From assembly GCA_028715225.1 (NCBI GenBank), contig JAQUSH010000017.1, forward strand, positions 1 through 10,771: 10,771 nt of DNA, given 5' to 3'. Source of the DNA: Candidatus Aenigmatarchaeota archaeon (GTDB taxonomy: Archaea; Aenigmatarchaeota; Aenigmatarchaeia; Aenigmatarchaeales; Aenigmatarchaeaceae). The position numbers and the translations under genes are program-made. The stretch's first letter is position 1. Every line of letters begins with the position of its first letter. Of this stretch, positions 2,752 to 10,771 are shown in pieces. A model generated the notes under the pieces. The model was given only the letters and a program-made list of their open reading frames with translations. It made no database searches and was not told the origin of the DNA.

Positions 2752-4443
2752 ATGATGGCTGAAGATAAAATAAATGAAAAATTTGGAAAAATTAAAAAAC
2801 AGTTTGAAAGTGGCAGAATGAAGCCAGAAATATATGCTATTGCTCTTGATGGAATGTTTGAAGCTGGTCTTTCAGAAGAAAGGTATGCTCAAGAAATTAT
2901 TGGATTGAGTAAAAAAGGTTATATTAATGCTGAAGAAAAATTCAAAGAAGAAAATATTGATCCTTCTAAATATTTACCAAAAAATAATGAAATGACAAAC
3001 TTAGAAAAACTTGAAGAGCTTGTCAATGAAAAACCAACTCCGCCTTCAGGAGAAACAGTTGAAGATTTGTTAAACACACTTGCAGAAGAAGATTCAAAAC
3101 CAAAACAACCAGAGCATTCAATGATTGATATAATTTATCAAAAATACCAAAGTGGTGATTTTGATAGATTTGTAGATGAAGGAACAATGAATGCCGAAAC
3201 TTTTAATTCCAAGTTAAAACAACTTTTAGATCATCAAAAAATAACTCCAGAAGAATATCAAAGTCATCTTAGAACAGAAAAAATAGTAGCACCTGAAGAA
3301 ATTGTAATAGCACAGAAAACAGATAATAGACTTTATGATAAGGAACATTCTATATATTGGAATGATGTTGAAGAAAAACTTGAAAAACATCTTAAAATAG
3401 ATCAACCTGCCGATGATGAAAATAATTATACATGCACTACATGTGCGATTAACAAAGTAAATACTGCTGTAGGTGAAAATCAAGATATTTGTCATGTGTG
3501 TAATGATAATTTAGTATCAGAAGATGGAGAAGAATTGCCAAAAGAAATTTCACTAGAAGATGAAACGACAAATGAAGAAACATTGAAAAATAATGATAAT
3601 TTTAAGAAAGAAGCTTTAGGTGTTTTGACAGATATAGAAGTAGATCCTACTGTTTTAGATATGATAAAATTCTATGCAACTACTAACGGATATACTGTGG
3701 AAGAGGCAGATTGTATTGCAAATTATATTTCTGGAATGAGTGAAGATCTTATTATGAGTAGGCGTATAGAAGGTAAATTTACACCTGAAATGCTAGATGA
3801 AGCAATTAAATTGACTGACAAAGAATATTCTGTTAAAAGAAAATCTTCAAGTGATTTGCTTTTAGAAGCAGCTGATCTTACAAAAAAATATGATGAAGAA
3901 ATAAAACAAAAGGAAGAAGACATCGCAAAAAAAGAAAGTGAATTATTGGAAAAAGAAATACACTTGATTAAAGCAACTGAAGCGCAAGAATTGACTGAAA
4001 GTGAAATAAGTGAAGGAATAAGAAATCTAAAAGCTGAAAGAGAGAGGCTTGAAAAAGAAAAAAATGAAACTGAAAAAAGAGCAGCTAAGATGCAGAAATA
4101 TTTAGCAGGTGTTTTATCACCTAAATTTAAAGAACTTCAATATATGTCTGAAAGAAATGTTGAAACAACATATGATGGTATTCGTTCAGAAACAGAAAAA
4201 ATGTTTACACAATACGAAAAAGCTCAGAAAAGATTTTTGGATTTTTTTGATGAATTAAATGATATGACGGATGATAAAGGATTTATAATGTCTGAATTTG
4301 GCCAAAGTCTTCAAGATTGGATGGAATCTGAATATTTCCCTAGAGAAGATCTTGATGCTCCAGTTGGATTATTTGTAGATAAGATAAAAACAACTGTAGA
4401 ACTTAATAATTTTTTAGAAAAACTAAGAGGTGAAAAACAATGA
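2752..4443 (+). CDS. Acidic coiled-coil protein with zinc ribbon and SHOCT-like helical repeats, unknown function
   Basis: This 563-residue protein has no signal peptide or membrane segment and is very rich in E, K and D; I do not recognise it as a whole. The N-terminal half contains short helix-turn-helix modules resembling SHOCT-type repeats: GRMKPEIYAIALDGMFEAGL (21-40), KKGYINAEEKF (54-64) and GTMNAETFNSKLKQLLDHQK (144-163, running on to PEEY). A related half-module, EGKFTPEMLDEAI, is at 340-352. A four-cysteine zinc ribbon lies in the middle: C228-x2-C231-x15-C247-x2-C250. Residues about 365-450 form a long charged coiled coil, followed by a helical C-terminal domain (about 455-563) with aromatic-rich patches (FLDFFDEL, DWMESEYF). 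The gene opens the operon, and its stop overlaps the next start (ATGA), so the two products are probably made together. A cytoplasmic scaffold or adaptor is a reasonable inference. Alternative start at 2755. Confidence 0.8.
   Translation: MMAEDKINEKFGKIKKQFESGRMKPEIYAIALDGMFEAGLSEERYAQEIIGLSKKGYINAEEKFKEENIDPSKYLPKNNEMTNLEKLEELVNEKPTPPSGETVEDLLNTLAEEDSKPKQPEHSMIDIIYQKYQSGDFDRFVDEGTMNAETFNSKLKQLLDHQKITPEEYQSHLRTEKIVAPEEIVIAQKTDNRLYDKEHSIYWNDVEEKLEKHLKIDQPADDENNYTCTTCAINKVNTAVGENQDICHVCNDNLVSEDGEELPKEISLEDETTNEETLKNNDNFKKEALGVLTDIEVDPTVLDMIKFYATTNGYTVEEADCIANYISGMSEDLIMSRRIEGKFTPEMLDEAIKLTDKEYSVKRKSSSDLLLEAADLTKKYDEEIKQKEEDIAKKESELLEKEIHLIKATEAQELTESEISEGIRNLKAERERLEKEKNETEKRAAKMQKYLAGVLSPKFKELQYMSERNVETTYDGIRSETEKMFTQYEKAQKRFLDFFDELNDMTDDKGFIMSEFGQSLQDWMESEYFPREDLDAPVGLFVDKIKTTVELNNFLEKLRGEKQ
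4426..4433 (+). promoter_or_regulatory. Shine-Dalgarno site of the single-pass membrane protein gene
   Basis: AGAGGTGA lies six bases before ATG 4440 and within the 3' end of the upstream coding sequence. With the ATGA stop/start overlap, this indicates coupled translation. Confidence 0.6.
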
Positions 4444-5723
4444 AAACAGATCATAATGATATATGGCATGCAAAACAGGCAGAGAAAAGAACAGAAGCAG
4501 AAAGACTTATGAAAAATCCTTATTTTATTTTAGCAGCCGCATCAATGGTAACTCCATCTGATAAAGGATATAAAGAAATGTCTAAGAAAAAATGGTCAAC
4601 TGGAGAAAAGATAGCTGTTGGTGGAACTGCAGCAGCATTGCTTCTAGCAGCAGTTGGTGTTGGTTTATACAAAATAGACAGTGATAAAAAGAACAATAAA
4701 ATTAATGAATTAGAAAATAAAAAAACACCAATGTATGATACAGTTGATGGCAAAGTTCAATTCATGAATGTTCTTAAACACCTGAATCAAACAGAAAGAT
4801 CAGAAATATTTTCAAATCTTCCTCAGGAAGTTGGAGCTGGTTCTGATGTTCAATTAGCATTAGACGCCATATTAGATGATCGTTATGGAAACTACGAACT
4901 TACAAGTCATACTGATAGAAACTGGGGTCTTTCAATACACATGGTTCCAGACGGAGAAGGATCATTTGCTTATACAGTTAAAAATGATACCATAGAGAAA
5001 GGTGTAGTTAGACAGAACATAAGCACAGCAACTTCATACAAATTGCTTCATTTGATAGGAGATGTTGCAGGTGAACCTTTAGAATATGAAGGACAAGGAA
5101 TAACTCCATCTAAATTAATGCAAATTAATGATTTAGTAGAATTTGATAGAAATGTTAGAACTGCTTTAGGAAATTACACATCATTAACATTAGATGCAAA
5201 AAATGCTTCACAAGCTGGACGTGTAGCTGAAATGATTGAGAAGGTTCCAGAACTTGCAGGAATACAATATAGAATGAATATGCAAGGAGATGTAAAGAAT
5301 CTTACATTTATTGATTTACAAGATGATGCAGCAGGAACACCAAATGGTGGTGGAAGTATTGCAGTTGCATATAATGAATCAGGTATGCCAGTTGATGTTG
5401 TAGTAATTGGAAAAAATAGCACAAGAAACTGGGTAAATGATTATTATGGAAAGGTTTCTAGCACAAGAAGTGGAACAAGAAGTGTAGAACTTACTTATGA
5501 CGAGAAAAGAATATCAACAAAAGGTCTAAACAAACATAATAAAAAAGCAATGAAAAGAGGAATTTCTCACATAGAAAAAGAAATGAAAGAAAATGGAATT
5601 GCTTACCTAAATTCAGAAAAGGTTCGTCCTGGAACACTTGCTATTTACGGAATTAACAAGGATACAAAGGAAGTAGCGGTCTACACAGTTAATCATAGAG
5701 GATACGGAAAGAAGATCCTTTGA
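4440..5723 (+). CDS. Single-pass membrane protein with large C-terminal domain, unknown function
   Basis: This 427-residue protein is not one I recognise. A charged N-terminal region of about 50 residues includes a mildly hydrophobic patch (NPYFILAAASMV, 26-37) and ends in a lysine cluster (KKKW). One clear transmembrane helix follows (about 57-77, AVGGTAAALLLAAVGVGLY). The positive-inside rule puts the N-terminus in the cytoplasm and residues 78-427 outside. After a short charged linker (KKNNKINELENKK), the rest reads as a mixed alpha/beta globular region with strands such as WGLSIHMVP and SIAVAYNES. A basic segment (about 352-385) precedes the C-terminus GYGKKIL. No catalytic motif or cysteine pair is evident. 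The gene overlaps the upstream coiled-coil gene by 4 bp and is followed 11 bp later by the giant surface protein, so it may couple a cytoplasmic scaffold to an extracellular protein; this is inference. Confidence 0.78.
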   Translation: MKTDHNDIWHAKQAEKRTEAERLMKNPYFILAAASMVTPSDKGYKEMSKKKWSTGEKIAVGGTAAALLLAAVGVGLYKIDSDKKNNKINELENKKTPMYDTVDGKVQFMNVLKHLNQTERSEIFSNLPQEVGAGSDVQLALDAILDDRYGNYELTSHTDRNWGLSIHMVPDGEGSFAYTVKNDTIEKGVVRQNISTATSYKLLHLIGDVAGEPLEYEGQGITPSKLMQINDLVEFDRNVRTALGNYTSLTLDAKNASQAGRVAEMIEKVPELAGIQYRMNMQGDVKNLTFIDLQDDAAGTPNGGGSIAVAYNESGMPVDVVVIGKNSTRNWVNDYYGKVSSTRSGTRSVELTYDEKRISTKGLNKHNKKAMKRGISHIEKEMKENGIAYLNSEKVRPGTLAIYGINKDTKEVAVYTVNHRGYGKKIL

Positions 5724-5730
5724 GGTTGAT
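5722..5730 (+). promoter_or_regulatory. Shine-Dalgarno site of the giant surface protein gene
   Basis: GAGGTTGAT, a one-base-expanded GAGGTGAT, lies four bases before ATG 5735 and overlaps the stop codon (5721-5723) of the upstream gene. Confidence 0.5.
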
Positions 5731-5734
5731 ATAA

Positions 5735-8700
5735 ATGTTTAAAAAAATCCTTTTTTCGATTTTTGTAATGTTTTTGTTAGTTGGAAATGTATTTGCTTTT
5801 GCAGCTGATACTGGAGAAACAACAGATGGTACATACTCTTTAACAATAAATGTATTTACTTCAGGAGGTTCATCTCTGAATGGAAATATAAGAGTGTATA
5901 ATCCTTCAAACACATTGGTTTGTACAGCAGACAATGTTCAGCAAAAGATATGTCAACTGACTTCTGGATTGGTATATTCGTATACAGTTTCAAACCCAGC
6001 ATACAATACAGGAACAGGAAGCGTGATGCTTAGTGGGAATACTGTAAGAAATGTTTATCTTATAGCAGATACTACAGCGCCAACTATGATGACTTTAACA
6101 TCATCTACTCATCCAAATCAAAATATTTATTACAATAACAATGATCCTTCATTTCAGTGGACATCTTCAGACAATGTAGGAATAGATGGATACAGCTTTA
6201 CAATTGATCAGTCAGCTGGAACAGTTCCAGATACAAGTAAAGACGTAGAAGAGACAACAACTTCTACTTCATATACAAACTTAGCAGATGGAATATGGTA
6301 TTTCCATATCAGACCTGTAGATAATGCAGGCAACTGGGGTTCTGCACTACATTATACAGTAAGAATAGACACAGCTGGTCCTGTATTTTCAGGATGCACA
6401 GTTAATCCAGCAAGTGGTTCACCTTATTCACCTGGGCAAACTTATACTTTTAGTTGTACAGTTACAGATATTTCAGGAGTAAGTTCTGTTACATTTAATT
6501 TTGGCGGAAGTTCAAAGACAGTAACTAAGTCTGGAGATGTTTATACAGCGACATTCAGCAACCTGAATGCTAATACTTATTCATACACATGGGCAGCAAG
6601 AGATTCAAACAATATACAGAGCACAAATACTGGTTCATATGTAGTTTCACAAGCTCTTACACAGATGCACATTGCAATAAATGATGTTGAATCAGATGCA
6701 AGTTTCATGGTGCCTGAAGATTTTTCAATTAAAACTTGGCCAGATGTTTCAGACGGAACATATTATGTATACAGAAACGGCGTTATTTTGGATTCTGGAA
6801 CAAGTACAGTTCCTGTTGTACACTGGGAATCAATAGTTGTGCCAGGCACAATTACTTACAGAATGACATATTCTGGTACAAATTATTATGCAAATGATGT
6901 GATTAGAACAGTTACAATTCTGCCAGATAATGTATTGCCAACAATAGTTCATACAGAAAATCCAACATCACCAACAACTTATGCGCCAGGACAGACATAT
7001 ACATTTACAGCAACTATCACAGATAATGTTGGTGTTCAGAGCGCACAGTTTTATTTTGACGGGGTTAATTATGTTTACACACAAACTGGAAATACTTACA
7101 CAGTTATGTTGAATGATCTTTCAGCAAATACTCACACATATGAATGGAGAGCAACTGATATAAACGGAAACGCAGCAACAACAGGAGTAATTAATTATAT
7201 AATCAACAGAGCTGCACCTGTAGCTCATTTATCATTGAATGGAGTAGAATCAGATCAGACAATAACTTACGGCGTATTATCAACAGCTCTTGGTTGGATA
7301 ACAACAGGAGAAACAGATGGAATACTGCAGAGAGACGGTGTTACTGTGACAAATCCTGAAACAGAAACACTTGCAGCAGGAATCTATACTTATGATTACA
7401 TTTATCCTCAAACTGAAAACTATACAACACTTACAATAACAAGAACATTAACTGTAGACAAAGCAACACCAGTATTATCTTTAGGAGCAAATCCAGGATG
7501 GACAGTTGCTTATCCAAACACAATAACAATCACAGGATCAGAAACAAATCAGGGAGATTCTGATTTAACTTATGAATTAGTTAGAGATGGAATTGTTGTA
7601 TCTAATCCAGACACTGTTTCAAATGCAGGAACATATAATTATGAATTTAGAACAGCTGGTGGAGAAAATTATACAGCAGGAACAACAGGTGTACAGGTTG
7701 CAACAATAACAAAACAGACACCAATTTTAACTTTAACATTCAATCCAGTTTCACCAATAACTTATGGCACACAGATGACAGCAATTTGCACTGTTGATAA
7801 TTTGGAACAGACACCTGTTCTTTACAGAGACGGTGTAGATGTATCTGCTGAAAACAGTGTACCTGTTACTTTGAATGCAGGAACATATTCATACTCTTGC
7901 GAAGTTTTAGAAAGTGCTAATTATGCACCTTCAACAGTTGGTCCAGAACCATATACAGTTAATCAGGCAAATGTAGTTGATCCATCTAATCCACTGATAC
8001 ATTTAGCATTGAATGGAATAGAGAGCGACCTGACAATAGCTTTAGGTTTGCAGTCAAATGCGACAGGATGGAAAGACATAGCAGATGGTACACTTACTCT
8101 ATTGAGAGACGGCGCACCAGTTGGTTTAGAAGATGTGCAGACTTTGCCAGTTGGAGTTTATAATTATACTTTGGTATTTACAGGAAATGTAAACTATGCA
8201 GATGCATCAGTAACTAGATTTGTTTACGTTTCAGATTCAACAGCACCGATTATCACAATAACAGCACCTTTAACTGGACAGTATACTTCAAATGAAACAT
8301 GGCTAAATGCAACAACCGACGAGAGTGCAACATGTTATTTCGGAACATCAAGTAATCCAACAAATCCAATGACATCAGTCGGAACAGACCACTCAACATA
8401 CTTAACAGGTTTGCCATACGGTTCAAACACTTATTATGTAAGGTGTGCTGACGTTTATGGAAACGAAGCAGAGACTTCAGTTACATGGAATGTTGTTCCT
8501 CATTATGATATTGAAATAACTAGCGGATGGAATTTGATATCTTTGCCACTTATACCAGTGTCACCAATTTTGACTTCAGATCCAATGTGGGGCACAAATT
8601 ATATTATACAGCATTACAATGCAAGCTTAGGAATAGTTCAAGAATATGATTCATCTAATCCAGGAGCAGCAACTTTATCTGAATTAGTTCCAGATTACGG

Positions 8701-9985
8701 ATACTGGGTACATGCAAACACAGACAGAACATTTACTTATTTAGGTACAGAACCAGGAATCAGAACAGTTCCATTAGTTAACGGAACAAACATGGTTGGA
8801 TGGACATCTAATGAATCAGTAAACATGCAGATAGCATTATACTTCATATCAGCAAACGTAACATCAGTTGAATGTCAAGACACAACAGACACAAGCATTC
8901 AGGCATTAAGAGTATGCAACATATCTACTGAAAGCTTTGAACCTGGAAAAGGTTATGTGATTAATGTTTCAAGCGCAAGCGAATGGAGCTATGTGCTAAA
9001 TGTTCCACCTACAGCTAACGCTGGATCAGATCAATCTATAACAGTAAGAGGCGGAATAACAGCAGATGGTTTAGGATCTTATGATTTAGATGGTACAATT
9101 GTTTCATACGTATGGACATTAGGCGGTGAAACAAAAACAGGAGCAACAACAACTTGGGAATTCAATACAGTTGGCACTTACACAATAACACTTACTGTAA
9201 CAGACAATGAAGGAGCAACAGATACAGATGATTTAATTGTAACTGTTACTGCACCATCAGGCGGAGGTGGTGGAGGCGGAGGCGGTGTTAGTACTACATT
9301 GCCAAGCACATCAGGATTCATAATTATAAATCTGACAGCACCTGAAACAGTTACTGCAACAAAAGGACAATCTGTAACATTTACAGCAACAGTTTCAAAC
9401 ATAGGTCAGACAGATGTTTATAACATCTATTTAGAAGGGGTTCCACCTTGGGTAACAATGACACCAGTGAACATAGAGCATCTTGGTAAAGGAGAATCTG
9501 GAAACTTCATAATAACACTTAGCGTTCCTCAAACAGCACCAAGCAGACAGATACTTACGTTAACTGCTAAAGGTTCAAATCCAAATGCTACAGCTGAAGC
9601 ATCAGCTACAATAGAAATTATTGGAAACGCAGCAGAATGTGAAAACTGTGCACAGCCAACAGCATGGACAACTTGTGATGTAAACGGTACACAAACTAGA
9701 ACAGTTTATACTTGCGATGCTGAAACAGGATACAATTGTGTAGAGACAACTGAAACAAGAGCATGTGGCGGATTAACAGGTTACTTCCTGTTGTTATCAG
9801 ACAATCCTGTACTGAGTGCAATAATTGGAATTATAATAATTTTGATAGCTGTATTTGGATACTACTACAGCAGAAACAGAGAAAAAGTAAGAGGAAAGAT
9901 AAGCGCAATGCTTGCTAAATTCAAACCTGCTAAAAAGGAATCTAAACCACAGGGAATAGACTTTAATGTTGAATATAAGAAATGA
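5735..9985 (+). CDS. Giant multi-Ig/PKD surface protein, C-terminally membrane-anchored
   Basis: This 1416-residue protein is exported by Sec: signal peptide 1-23 (MFKKILFSIFVMFLLVGNVFA, then FA before a likely cut at 23/24). Domains in order: beta-rich PEGA/carboxypeptidase-regulatory-like (about 32-111); Ig/FN3-like (113-213); Ig-like (212-303); module A1 (312-397); Ig-like (398-492); A2 (498-576); two related Big_3-like Ig modules (577-660, 661-744); A3 (756-834); Ig-like (835-921); a GWNLISLP domain (926-1088, motif at 931-938); PKD (1089-1172, NVPPTANAGSDQ ... GTYTITLTVTDNEG); a nine-glycine linker (1176-1184); a CARDB/NPCBM-like domain (about 1192-1297); a six-cysteine thrombospondin-1-like element (1302-1344, W..C..NGTQTRT); a transmembrane helix (about 1357-1378); and a basic cytoplasmic tail (1379-1416). 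Likely an adhesin or envelope protein standing well off the cell. All 15 N-glycosylation sequons lie after residue 561. Domain labels other than PKD are by pattern. Confidence 0.92.
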   Translation: MFKKILFSIFVMFLLVGNVFAFAADTGETTDGTYSLTINVFTSGGSSLNGNIRVYNPSNTLVCTADNVQQKICQLTSGLVYSYTVSNPAYNTGTGSVMLSGNTVRNVYLIADTTAPTMMTLTSSTHPNQNIYYNNNDPSFQWTSSDNVGIDGYSFTIDQSAGTVPDTSKDVEETTTSTSYTNLADGIWYFHIRPVDNAGNWGSALHYTVRIDTAGPVFSGCTVNPASGSPYSPGQTYTFSCTVTDISGVSSVTFNFGGSSKTVTKSGDVYTATFSNLNANTYSYTWAARDSNNIQSTNTGSYVVSQALTQMHIAINDVESDASFMVPEDFSIKTWPDVSDGTYYVYRNGVILDSGTSTVPVVHWESIVVPGTITYRMTYSGTNYYANDVIRTVTILPDNVLPTIVHTENPTSPTTYAPGQTYTFTATITDNVGVQSAQFYFDGVNYVYTQTGNTYTVMLNDLSANTHTYEWRATDINGNAATTGVINYIINRAAPVAHLSLNGVESDQTITYGVLSTALGWITTGETDGILQRDGVTVTNPETETLAAGIYTYDYIYPQTENYTTLTITRTLTVDKATPVLSLGANPGWTVAYPNTITITGSETNQGDSDLTYELVRDGIVVSNPDTVSNAGTYNYEFRTAGGENYTAGTTGVQVATITKQTPILTLTFNPVSPITYGTQMTAICTVDNLEQTPVLYRDGVDVSAENSVPVTLNAGTYSYSCEVLESANYAPSTVGPEPYTVNQANVVDPSNPLIHLALNGIESDLTIALGLQSNATGWKDIADGTLTLLRDGAPVGLEDVQTLPVGVYNYTLVFTGNVNYADASVTRFVYVSDSTAPIITITAPLTGQYTSNETWLNATTDESATCYFGTSSNPTNPMTSVGTDHSTYLTGLPYGSNTYYVRCADVYGNEAETSVTWNVVPHYDIEITSGWNLISLPLIPVSPILTSDPMWGTNYIIQHYNASLGIVQEYDSSNPGAATLSELVPDYGYWVHANTDRTFTYLGTEPGIRTVPLVNGTNMVGWTSNESVNMQIALYFISANVTSVECQDTTDTSIQALRVCNISTESFEPGKGYVINVSSASEWSYVLNVPPTANAGSDQSITVRGGITADGLGSYDLDGTIVSYVWTLGGETKTGATTTWEFNTVGTYTITLTVTDNEGATDTDDLIVTVTAPSGGGGGGGGGVSTTLPSTSGFIIINLTAPETVTATKGQSVTFTATVSNIGQTDVYNIYLEGVPPWVTMTPVNIEHLGKGESGNFIITLSVPQTAPSRQILTLTAKGSNPNATAEASATIEIIGNAAECENCAQPTAWTTCDVNGTQTRTVYTCDAETGYNCVETTETRACGGLTGYFLLLSDNPVLSAIIGIIIILIAVFGYYYSRNREKVRGKISAMLAKFKPAKKESKPQGIDFNVEYKK
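6668..8236 (+). repeat. Protein-level Ig module repeats inside the surface protein
   Basis: Three modules begin with a shared signature, H-[IL]-[AS]-[IL]-N-[DG]-[VI]-ESD, at nt 6668 (HIAINDVESD), 7226 (HLSLNGVESD) and 8000 (HLALNGIESD), each about 80-86 residues. Two more modules between them (about 7463-7966) share the later part, RDGxxV followed by NAGTY-[NS]-Y and NY. The order is A1, unrelated Ig, A2, B, C, A3. The copies differ strongly, so the duplications are old and not recent DNA tandem repeats. Confidence 0.75.
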
Positions 9986-9990
9986 TTATT

Positions 9991-10098
9991 ATGAAAACAA
10001 AACAAAAAACATTAGACGATAAAATTACAGATATATCACTTTTACCACCTAAATATAGAGCAAAGCCAATCAGAGCAGATAACATAATGTATGCGTGA
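9991..10098 (+). CDS. 35-residue protein with C-terminal LPP-x11-IMYA motif
   Basis: A short frame (MKTKQKTLDDKITDISL at the N-terminus) lies in the 119 bp between the surface protein and the 99-residue gene, starting 5 bp after one and ending 6 bp before the other. A weak TGAT Shine-Dalgarno-like site (9983-9986) precedes the ATG, as for other genes of this operon. The protein is basic and hydrophilic, with no membrane segment. It ends LPP (18-20), eleven residues, IMYA (32-35). The next gene ends with LPP, nine residues, IMYA. This shared C-terminus, encoded with different synonymous codons (tatgcg versus tacgcc), is the best evidence that the short frame is real. It could be a carrier of a C-terminal docking or sorting peptide, or a degenerate remnant of a longer paralogue. 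Function unknown. Confidence 0.6.
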   Translation: MKTKQKTLDDKITDISLLPPKYRAKPIRADNIMYA

Positions 10099-10104
10099 TT
10101 TGTT

Positions 10105-10404
10105 ATGAAAGGAAAAGATGCGTATCTAATGGAAAGAGCAATAAAAGATGAAGCTTCTGATAGAAGGATTCATTACGATTTTGAATTAATAGTAGATTCT
10201 CCATATGCGATGTTTGCAATTATTAATGCTGCATCTAAACAACTTGGAAGTGATTTGCGAAAGTCATTTGAAAAAGATCACGAAAAAATAATAGAAAGAT
10301 ATAATGAACTTTTGACTAGAAAGCTGTTTCATCTTATAAAAAGCACTGGTGAACTTCCTCCACTGTTTGAGATAAGTGATGAGTCGCAAATAATGTACGC
10401 CTAA
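10105..10404 (+). CDS. 99-residue helical protein ending in IMYA, unknown function
   Basis: This last gene of the operon starts 6 bp after the 35-residue gene, with GTGAT (10095-10099) five bases before its ATG, overlapping the previous stop. The protein is soluble and mostly helical: a charged N-terminus (MKGKDAYLMERAIKDEAS), a more hydrophobic stretch (FELIVDSPYAMFAIINAASKQLG, with its halves at about 26-37 and 38-48), and a long amphipathic helix (about 50-79). The tail carries LPP (84-86) and terminates in IMYA (96-99), matching the C-terminus of the 35-residue protein. I do not recognise a family. Its position between a surface protein and a HerA-like ATPase suggests a small accessory or adaptor subunit whose tail binds a common partner, which is inference. 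Confidence 0.75.
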   Translation: MKGKDAYLMERAIKDEASDRRIHYDFELIVDSPYAMFAIINAASKQLGSDLRKSFEKDHEKIIERYNELLTRKLFHLIKSTGELPPLFEISDESQIMYA

Positions 10405-10408
10405 AACC

Positions 10409-10419
10409 TTTTTATTTAA
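10409..10419 (+). promoter_or_regulatory. TATA-like box of the HerA-like gene, possibly also operon terminator
   Basis: TTTTTATTTAA is centred about 24 bp before ATG 10438, consistent with a leaderless start. It begins 5 bp after the stop of the 99-residue gene. Its T-rich strand (TTTTTATTT, 10409-10417) is also what archaeal intrinsic termination uses, so the same 11 bp may end one transcript and start the next. Confidence 0.45.
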
Positions 10420-10437
10420 CCTATTCTAAATTTAAGT

Positions 10438-10771
10438 ATGGCGCTAGAAGACATTATAGTCGGAAGAGATCCAGAAGATATAAGAAAATATGGAAAGAAA
10501 GGATGCATCTATATCGGCAAAAATGTAGTAGGTTCTGGTTTTGATTCTCATATGACTAATCCTATTCTGATGGATGTAGTGCGACCTCATGTAATTCTGA
10601 TAAGTGGAAAGAGAGGTTCAGGTAAATCATATACAGGTGCAGTTATAGTTGAAGAAATAATGGAACTGCCAGATGATGTCAGAAATGACTTATCGTGTCT
10701 GATGATTGATACAATGGGAATATTCTGGTCTATGAAAAATCCAAACGAGAAAGATTATAATTTATTAGTTG
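10438..10771 (+). CDS. HerA/DUF87-like P-loop ATPase, C-terminus cut by window edge
   Basis: The frame opens at ATG 10438 and is uninterrupted to the window edge (111 codons). It reads MALEDIIVGRDPEDIRKYG..., then a small beta segment (GCIYIGKNVVG, 22-32) and the approach strand RPHVILISGKRGSGKS, whose Walker A GKRGSGKS is at residues 57-64. The stretch LMIDTMGIFW (88-97) matches the early Asp-containing strand that follows Walker A in HerA/FtsK-type ATPases (often written as D-x-x-G-x-[FY]). The family forms hexameric rings that move DNA or, in conjugation- and secretion-related relatives, power macromolecule export. The part that would tell these apart, including Walker B and the arginine finger, lies beyond the window. 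It has its own TATA-like box but sits 33 bp behind the operon and could be functionally linked to it. Confidence 0.82.
   Translation, partial: MALEDIIVGRDPEDIRKYGKKGCIYIGKNVVGSGFDSHMTNPILMDVVRPHVILISGKRGSGKSYTGAVIVEEIMELPDDVRNDLSCLMIDTMGIFWSMKNPNEKDYNLLV

Follow-up and report, generated by a model that had tools for sequence, protein, structure and literature searches.

Two adjacent small proteins of an Aenigmatarchaeota archaeon end in the same LPP...IMYA tail, for which the 20S proteasome is a candidate reader

Two neighbouring small genes of a Candidatus Aenigmatarchaeota archaeon encode proteins of 35 and 99 residues, called here sm35 and sm99, which end in the same way although their bodies differ. 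They lie in a stretch of 10,771 nucleotides (the window), which is the entire contig C33 of a 671-kb genome assembled in 104 contigs (86.7% complete, 5.45% contamination; G000 in the comparisons below). We propose, with a probability of roughly 0.3, that selection may have kept the shared tails as handles for docking, on small proteins that evolve fast and act as adaptors or regulators, and that they would be read by the alpha-ring of the 20S proteasome, which may be the likeliest single receptor and is put forward here as a candidate only.

Reading of the sequence confirmed the two ends and the two spacings of the original prediction, namely LPP-x11-IMYA for the product of 9991-10098 and LPP-x9-IMYA for that of 10105-10404. 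The first protein ends LPPKYRAKPIRADNIMYA and the second LPPLFEISDESQIMYA. On the plus strand, LPP is encoded by TTA CCA CCT in sm35 (10042..10050) and by CTT CCT CCA in sm99 (10354..10362), while IMYA and its stop are read from ATA ATG TAT GCG TGA at 10084..10098 (ATAATGTATGCGTGA) and from ATA ATG TAC GCC TAA at 10390..10404 (ATAATGTACGCCTAA); in both proteins MYA satisfies the HbYX motif, the nearest C-terminal motif known, which the original prediction does not name. The synonymous codons do differ, as had been claimed: Leu, both Pro, Tyr, Ala and the stop are written differently in the two genes, the Ile codon is identical, and Met has a single codon. The bodies are also as unlike as had been stated, with no resemblance outside LPP and IMYA beyond that of many gene pairs. 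Because IMYA followed by a stop is unique to this pair in the genome, the codons differ and the bodies are unrelated, selection at the protein level is a better account than a recent DNA duplication, which agrees with the preference expressed originally. The broader idea of a functional free C-terminal tail survives in part. The codons, the unrelated bodies and the similar ends of genes at the same position in other genomes, the last being a pattern formed post hoc, speak for it; the HerA-like ATPase that had been suggested as its reader finds no support, as set out below. A single-sequence model of sm99, of low confidence (mean pLDDT 53.5), is mostly helical, with a helix over residues 49-81 and about 15 unstructured residues at the end.

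The small genes close a tight co-directional array (2752-10404, plus strand), one of whose products is a giant surface protein and in which genes overlap by four bases at 4440 and 9982. Its first member is a 563-residue protein (2752..4443), coiled-coil by inspection and with two CxxC pairs, which is a probable operon member and gave no Pfam, PHROGs or PADLOC match. The start of the following 427-residue protein (4440..5723), with one likely transmembrane segment by inspection, shares four bases with the preceding stop; this protein has no Pfam match at E 0.001, and PHROGs and PADLOC were also empty. Next comes the 1416-residue Ig/PKD surface protein (surf, 5735..9985), with a C-terminal transmembrane segment by inspection and the tail QGIDFNVEYKK. 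The last residues of surf (window 9950-9982) are conserved in relatives, as QGIDFNVEYKK, QGIDFSIEYGDKK, EGIDFSINYGDK, and QGIDFSIEYKK followed by a further 11 residues, and two additional relatives of the protein were found (P0003, P0004).

The surface protein forms the upstream border of a slot that is occupied here by sm35 and sm99. Counted from the ATG at 9982, where it shares four bases with the end of the surface-protein gene, sm35 has 38 residues (9982..10098, ending RADNIMYA). In two relatives the slot begins with another gene, and this too runs into the surface-protein stop, the overlap being four bases in G006 and one base in G007; given these overlaps, the 35-residue frame is likely a real gene. 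The ORFan sm99 (10105..10404, ending ESQIMYA) starts 6 bases past the sm35 stop. It is followed by a 33-bp spacer (10405..10437, AACCTTTTTATTTAACCTATTCTAAATTTAAGT) in which a T-run and a TATA-like stretch can be read, which suggests that sm35 and sm99 form the end of the surface-protein operon, with sm99 as its last gene, and that the HerA-like gene is transcribed separately from its own promoter-like element after 10404. The N-terminal part of this conserved HerA-like ATPase (10438..10770, plus strand) is the downstream border of the slot, and the remainder, ending KEKN, lies on contig C92 of the same genome. C92 begins inside the truncated gene of the window with one residue different (window 10525-10770; L032 3-248), which suggests that strain variation broke the assembly.

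A HerA-like gene is present in 15 of the 17 genomes of the order. Named records with a related gene are labelled for the most part as Aenigmatarchaeota or Nanoarchaeota, and in a few cases as Micrarchaeota, Pacearchaeota or Nanohaloarchaea; a single distant match is bacterial, and the nearest record is isolate KR11_0.1_MetaG.mb.10. The distribution of sm99 is very different (1 of 17), so the two are not conserved together, and no small gene was called before the HerA-like gene in G001, G004, G005 and G008. Since the ATPase is present where the tail genes are absent, its proposed role as the tail reader is unsupported. In G005 (L030 7031-9613) the HerA-like gene is an 860-residue frame that, by inspection, carries an intein-like insert immediately behind its Walker A sequence, GKRGSGK.

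In three other genomes the slot is filled by small genes that are unrelated by sequence. The sister species G006 has six of them between the surface protein and the HerA-like gene (50, 157, 105, 82, 103 and 31 residues) and G007 has two (159 and 71 residues). The single 136-residue gene of G013 stands behind a 576-residue surface-type protein, itself located after a 1382-residue frame that matches surf; no similarity of the 576-residue protein to the C-terminal part of surf was detected. G003 offers only an uncalled 80-residue frame ending GGP, and the HerA-like gene comes immediately after the surface protein in G001 and G005. The small genes before the HerA-like gene in G009 and G010 (74 and 81 residues) come without a surface protein and were excluded from the slot genes.

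Homology searches connect few of these proteins. Among 5.8 billion proteins sm99 found only itself; within the 17 genomes of the order it occurs only in its own genome, and viral contigs were empty, so that no orthologue of sm99, with or without the tail, came to light. Neither sm35 nor sm99 has a Pfam match (E 0.001), including PAC2-type, PAN OB and AAA domains, and sm35 was also without match in PHROGs and PADLOC. When 18 slot and operon proteins were compared with each other, sm35 and sm99 had no match at E 1 among the slot proteins of relatives. The same comparison linked the 563-residue protein to a 531-residue protein of G005 (E 1e-5) through coiled-coil-like sequence. The 563-residue protein and the 105-residue slot protein of G006 have similar starts, MAEDKINEKFGKIKKQFE (2755-2808) and MTEDKVIKNFGKFMERVE (L034 3918-3971), with 44% identity over 18 residues (E 0.31). 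The slot proteins of the relatives gave nothing over the cut-off in Pfam (seven of nine scanned) and, in PHROGs (six of nine scanned), only weak matches of three proteins to families of unknown function (E 0.017 to 0.041). PADLOC returned a weak DrmC match (E 0.025) for the 157-residue protein of G006, and the 50-residue protein of that species, the one of the nine searched in the protein database, returned only itself.

Two other origins of the slot were considered and rejected. A viral source was set aside because scans of viral contigs turned up no relatives of sm99, the surf C-terminus, the HerA-like ATPase or the 427-residue protein. A defence system was rejected as well: PADLOC matches the HerA-like ATPase (14 families) and none of sm35, sm99 and the 563- and 427-residue proteins.

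The occurrence of the exact end was measured with a 15-base pattern, IMYA in any codons followed by T-R-R, using the reversed pattern as a control. Both of the occurrences in the genome itself are in the window, and the control gave none; in 156 genomes of the class there were 22 occurrences against 9 for the control. All 20 matches outside the window were read. Five continue with TGG, which is no stop, and in the other 15 the frames from start to stop reach 33 residues at most, so none of the 20 is a convincing gene end. Thus, the suggestion that related archaea could be searched for further proteins with this tail did not bear fruit in the 156 genomes of the class, where very short genes are possible. 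A 26-residue frame ending KDSIMYA in G005 (L033 1045-1125, minus strand) is possible coding only.

A looser likeness appears when all the slot genes are compared. The 11 called slot genes end IMYA and IMYA in G000; PYIA, KGDL, TGDL, GGFG, IGEL and KVVY in G006; DGFA and LYSK in G007; and VNYG in G013. Six of them, in four genomes, end with an aromatic residue, an optional further residue and Ala or Gly ([YF].?[AG]), compared with 4 of 539 other genes (1 of 318 in the same 28 loci and 3 of 221 in stretches sampled from G000 and G006, 16 in all, which cover part of each genome). Outside G000 the share is four of nine slot products, without the G013 gene it is five of ten, and among proteins of up to 160 residues it is 6 of 11 versus 1 of 176. 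The pattern was formed after MYA, YIA, GFA, NYG and YIG had been seen, and GGFG, from the 82-residue protein, was added later, though it had been displayed previously; p-values of 2.5e-9 and 5.8e-8 therefore overstate the case. Less tailored counts give a final Ala in 4 of 11 slot genes against 19 of 539 (p 6e-4), and a final Ala or Gly in 6 of 11 against 49 of 539 (p 2e-4). Genes were called with a simple codon-usage caller; those cut at the ends of stretches or shorter than 30 residues were left out, and the 80-residue frame of G003 stands outside the 11.

The four matches outside the slot are the Cdc48 of G000 (SRYIG), a 118-residue protein of G006 (NAYIG), a 247-residue protein (FLA) and a 345-residue protein (FTFG). 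The 118-residue protein (L151 18104-18457, minus strand) adjoins an L21e-looking ribosomal gene, belongs to no family over the cut-off and has no match in the other loci compared. Moreover, three of the six slot proteins of G006 (L034 3445-4810) end KGDL, TGDL and IGEL, which may be another shared tail.

The proteasome is a candidate context for such ends. Both 20S subunits are encoded in the genome (alpha by alignment, beta by inspection). The alpha subunit aligns without gaps over the pocket region of 1pma_A, a Thermoplasma chain, and keeps the equivalents of K66, L21, P17 and V24, with V in place of T13 and M in place of T78. K66 is reported to be required for tail binding, and L21 to line the hydrophobic pocket (PMC12352868). 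Cdc48 is the only detected two-domain AAA frame of the genome and ends YIG, and among the 15 of the 17 genomes in which this end was read YIG was found in 14 and YIR in one, with varying residues before it. The Cdc48 frame of G006 (G006:C19 5848-7986, 1215 residues) has extra sequence at about query residues 137-146, possibly an intein. The PAN OB domain (PF16450) does not reach the cut-off in any of the order's 17 genomes, which are incomplete MAGs, and exceeds it in all four archaeal controls; G015 has a match just under the cut-off (21.1 bits versus 23).

HbYX ends have been reported on 0.93% of archaeal proteins, with 44 such proteins in Archaeoglobus fulgidus, most of them with unknown functions (PMC11475706), and the archaeal VAT, a Cdc48, is reported to have HbYX (PMC5070193). 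Most Cdc48 proteins from yeast to human are described as ending LYX (PMC6008533); the YIG of this order is thus a departure, and its docking is assumed. A literature search combining DPANN and HbYX found no paper. Several points count against the 20S reading: a strict HbYX end is present on 2 of 11 slot genes, both of them in the window, versus 2 of 539; five of the 11 do not fit even the looser pattern (GDL, GDL, GEL, VVY and LYSK), nor does the GGP frame of G003; HbYX proteins are not all proteasome binders; T13 and T78 of the aligned alpha chain are replaced; G015 comes close to a PAN match; and the YIG of Cdc48 is not a strict HbYX.

If the 20S reading is right, the bodies of the small adaptors or regulators would be free to change while the tail is kept as a docking handle. 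LPP and the residues that follow would serve as a flexible spacer, and MYA, a canonical HbYX end, would enter the pocket between 20S alpha subunits, which is the least certain step. The slot proteins would then occupy intersubunit pockets otherwise used by Cdc48, whose YIG is only presumed to dock there, and their bodies could bring substrates encoded in the operon to the 20S, shield products of the operon, or compete with Cdc48. A still broader version, which we consider doubtful, is that the slot holds small proteins, unrelated and rapidly replaced, all of which plug into the 20S with a tail of the HbYX or Cdc48-like kind, so that a lineage lacking PAN at the cut-off used would be diversifying its adaptors or inhibitors by swapping their bodies.

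The tail could also dock on a partner from the same operon, such as the 427-residue membrane protein, the 563-residue coiled-coil protein or the surface protein at its cytosolic end, and thereby take part in assembling a species-specific surface machine. We regard this as a real, if tentative, possibility. The tight co-directional array with its four-base overlaps fits it, and the 563- and 427-residue proteins, which have no tblastn match in 11 loci, are as lineage-limited as the tails. There is also a weak coiled-coil-like match between sm99 and the 563-residue protein (35% over 37 residues, E 0.011 among the 18 proteins); the surface protein keeps a short end of its own, and the unrelated 136-residue slot protein of G013 ends SFTVNYG. 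Yet no shared partner sequence explains the like ends in four genomes whose operon proteins are largely unalignable. Reading the tail as a C-terminal degradation signal, hydrophobic and closed by Ala somewhat as in ssrA, through which Cdc48 and the 20S would take up the small proteins as short-lived substrates, accommodates the ends that join an aromatic or aliphatic residue to Ala (4 of 11 slot genes versus 2 of 318, a class chosen post hoc) and the probably unstructured end of sm99 in the low-confidence model. We find it unlikely, as Cdc48, which one would not expect to be a short-lived substrate, carries such an end almost invariably, and as the titles and opening lines of abstracts returned by a search on archaeal C-terminal degrons mention nothing of such form.

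Two explanations remain, chance and an old duplication. In a whole-window reading some coincidence may be picked out, and this observation was made post hoc and involves only four contiguous residues. Among 197 adjacent same-strand pairs in the loci, three share at least three last residues, compared with 1 of 137 in the sampled stretches; besides IMYA/IMYA they are GDL/GDL, in the same slot of G006, and the HerA-like gene with its downstream neighbour in L046. Chance nevertheless seems rather unlikely to us: judged by the composition of gene ends, the probability that a given pair of proteins agrees in its last four residues is about 4e-5, the pattern is unique in the genome, and three other genomes have related ends in this slot. 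Across 53,956 pairs, from 329 called genes in 28 loci, seven share at least four last residues, sm35/sm99 being one and at least some of the others being orthologues. An old duplication, by which sm35 would have diverged from the C-terminal part of an sm99-like gene and the tail would be simple homology, could account for two adjacent genes on the same strand with LPP and then IMYA in both, and only 7 of 20,000 shuffles give a C-anchored alignment of the last 30 residues as good as theirs. But 569 of the 53,956 real pairs align equally well, there is little likeness beyond LPP and IMYA, most codons of the shared residues differ, and selection would still be needed to retain only the tail, all of which makes this origin improbable.

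Docking on the 20S, if it takes place, would reveal easily recognised, fast-evolving small proteasome partners in archaea without detectable PAN, together with a simple C-terminal rule for finding them. Should the tails instead bind operon partners, the rule would still mark small proteins that homology search leaves unconnected, and the C-terminus would become a handle on lineage-specific dark proteins.

Known systems resemble these tails to different degrees. Like the HbYX activators and regulators (PAN, Rpt5, Cdc48/VAT), sm35 and sm99 have a free end of the form hydrophobic-Tyr-any, in a genome that encodes a 20S with the K66 equivalent, and the Y-A end is common to them and human Rpt5, reported to end ANLQYYA (PMC8907193); unlike those activators, they are small and without family match, and sm99 is found in one genome only. 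Among the archaeal PAC1-PAC2 homologues PbaB and PbaA, PbaB provides a precedent for a non-ATPase with an HbYX tail, being described as an archaeal 20S binder whose flexible C-terminal tail ends Gly-Tyr-Leu in P. furiosus (PMC3605417); it differs in being tetrameric, with homologues widespread in archaea, whereas sm35 and sm99 have no Pfam family. The Cdc48 of the order has a short free C-terminal tyrosine tail, YIG, of the same aromatic-(x)-Ala/Gly pattern, but its tyrosine is third-last, compared with second-last in IMYA, and it is a conserved AAA unfoldase. Finally, bacterial ssrA-type degrons are hydrophobic tails ending in Ala that are added by tmRNA, in contrast to IMYA, which is encoded in the genes themselves; no archaeal equivalent of such a system was identified here.
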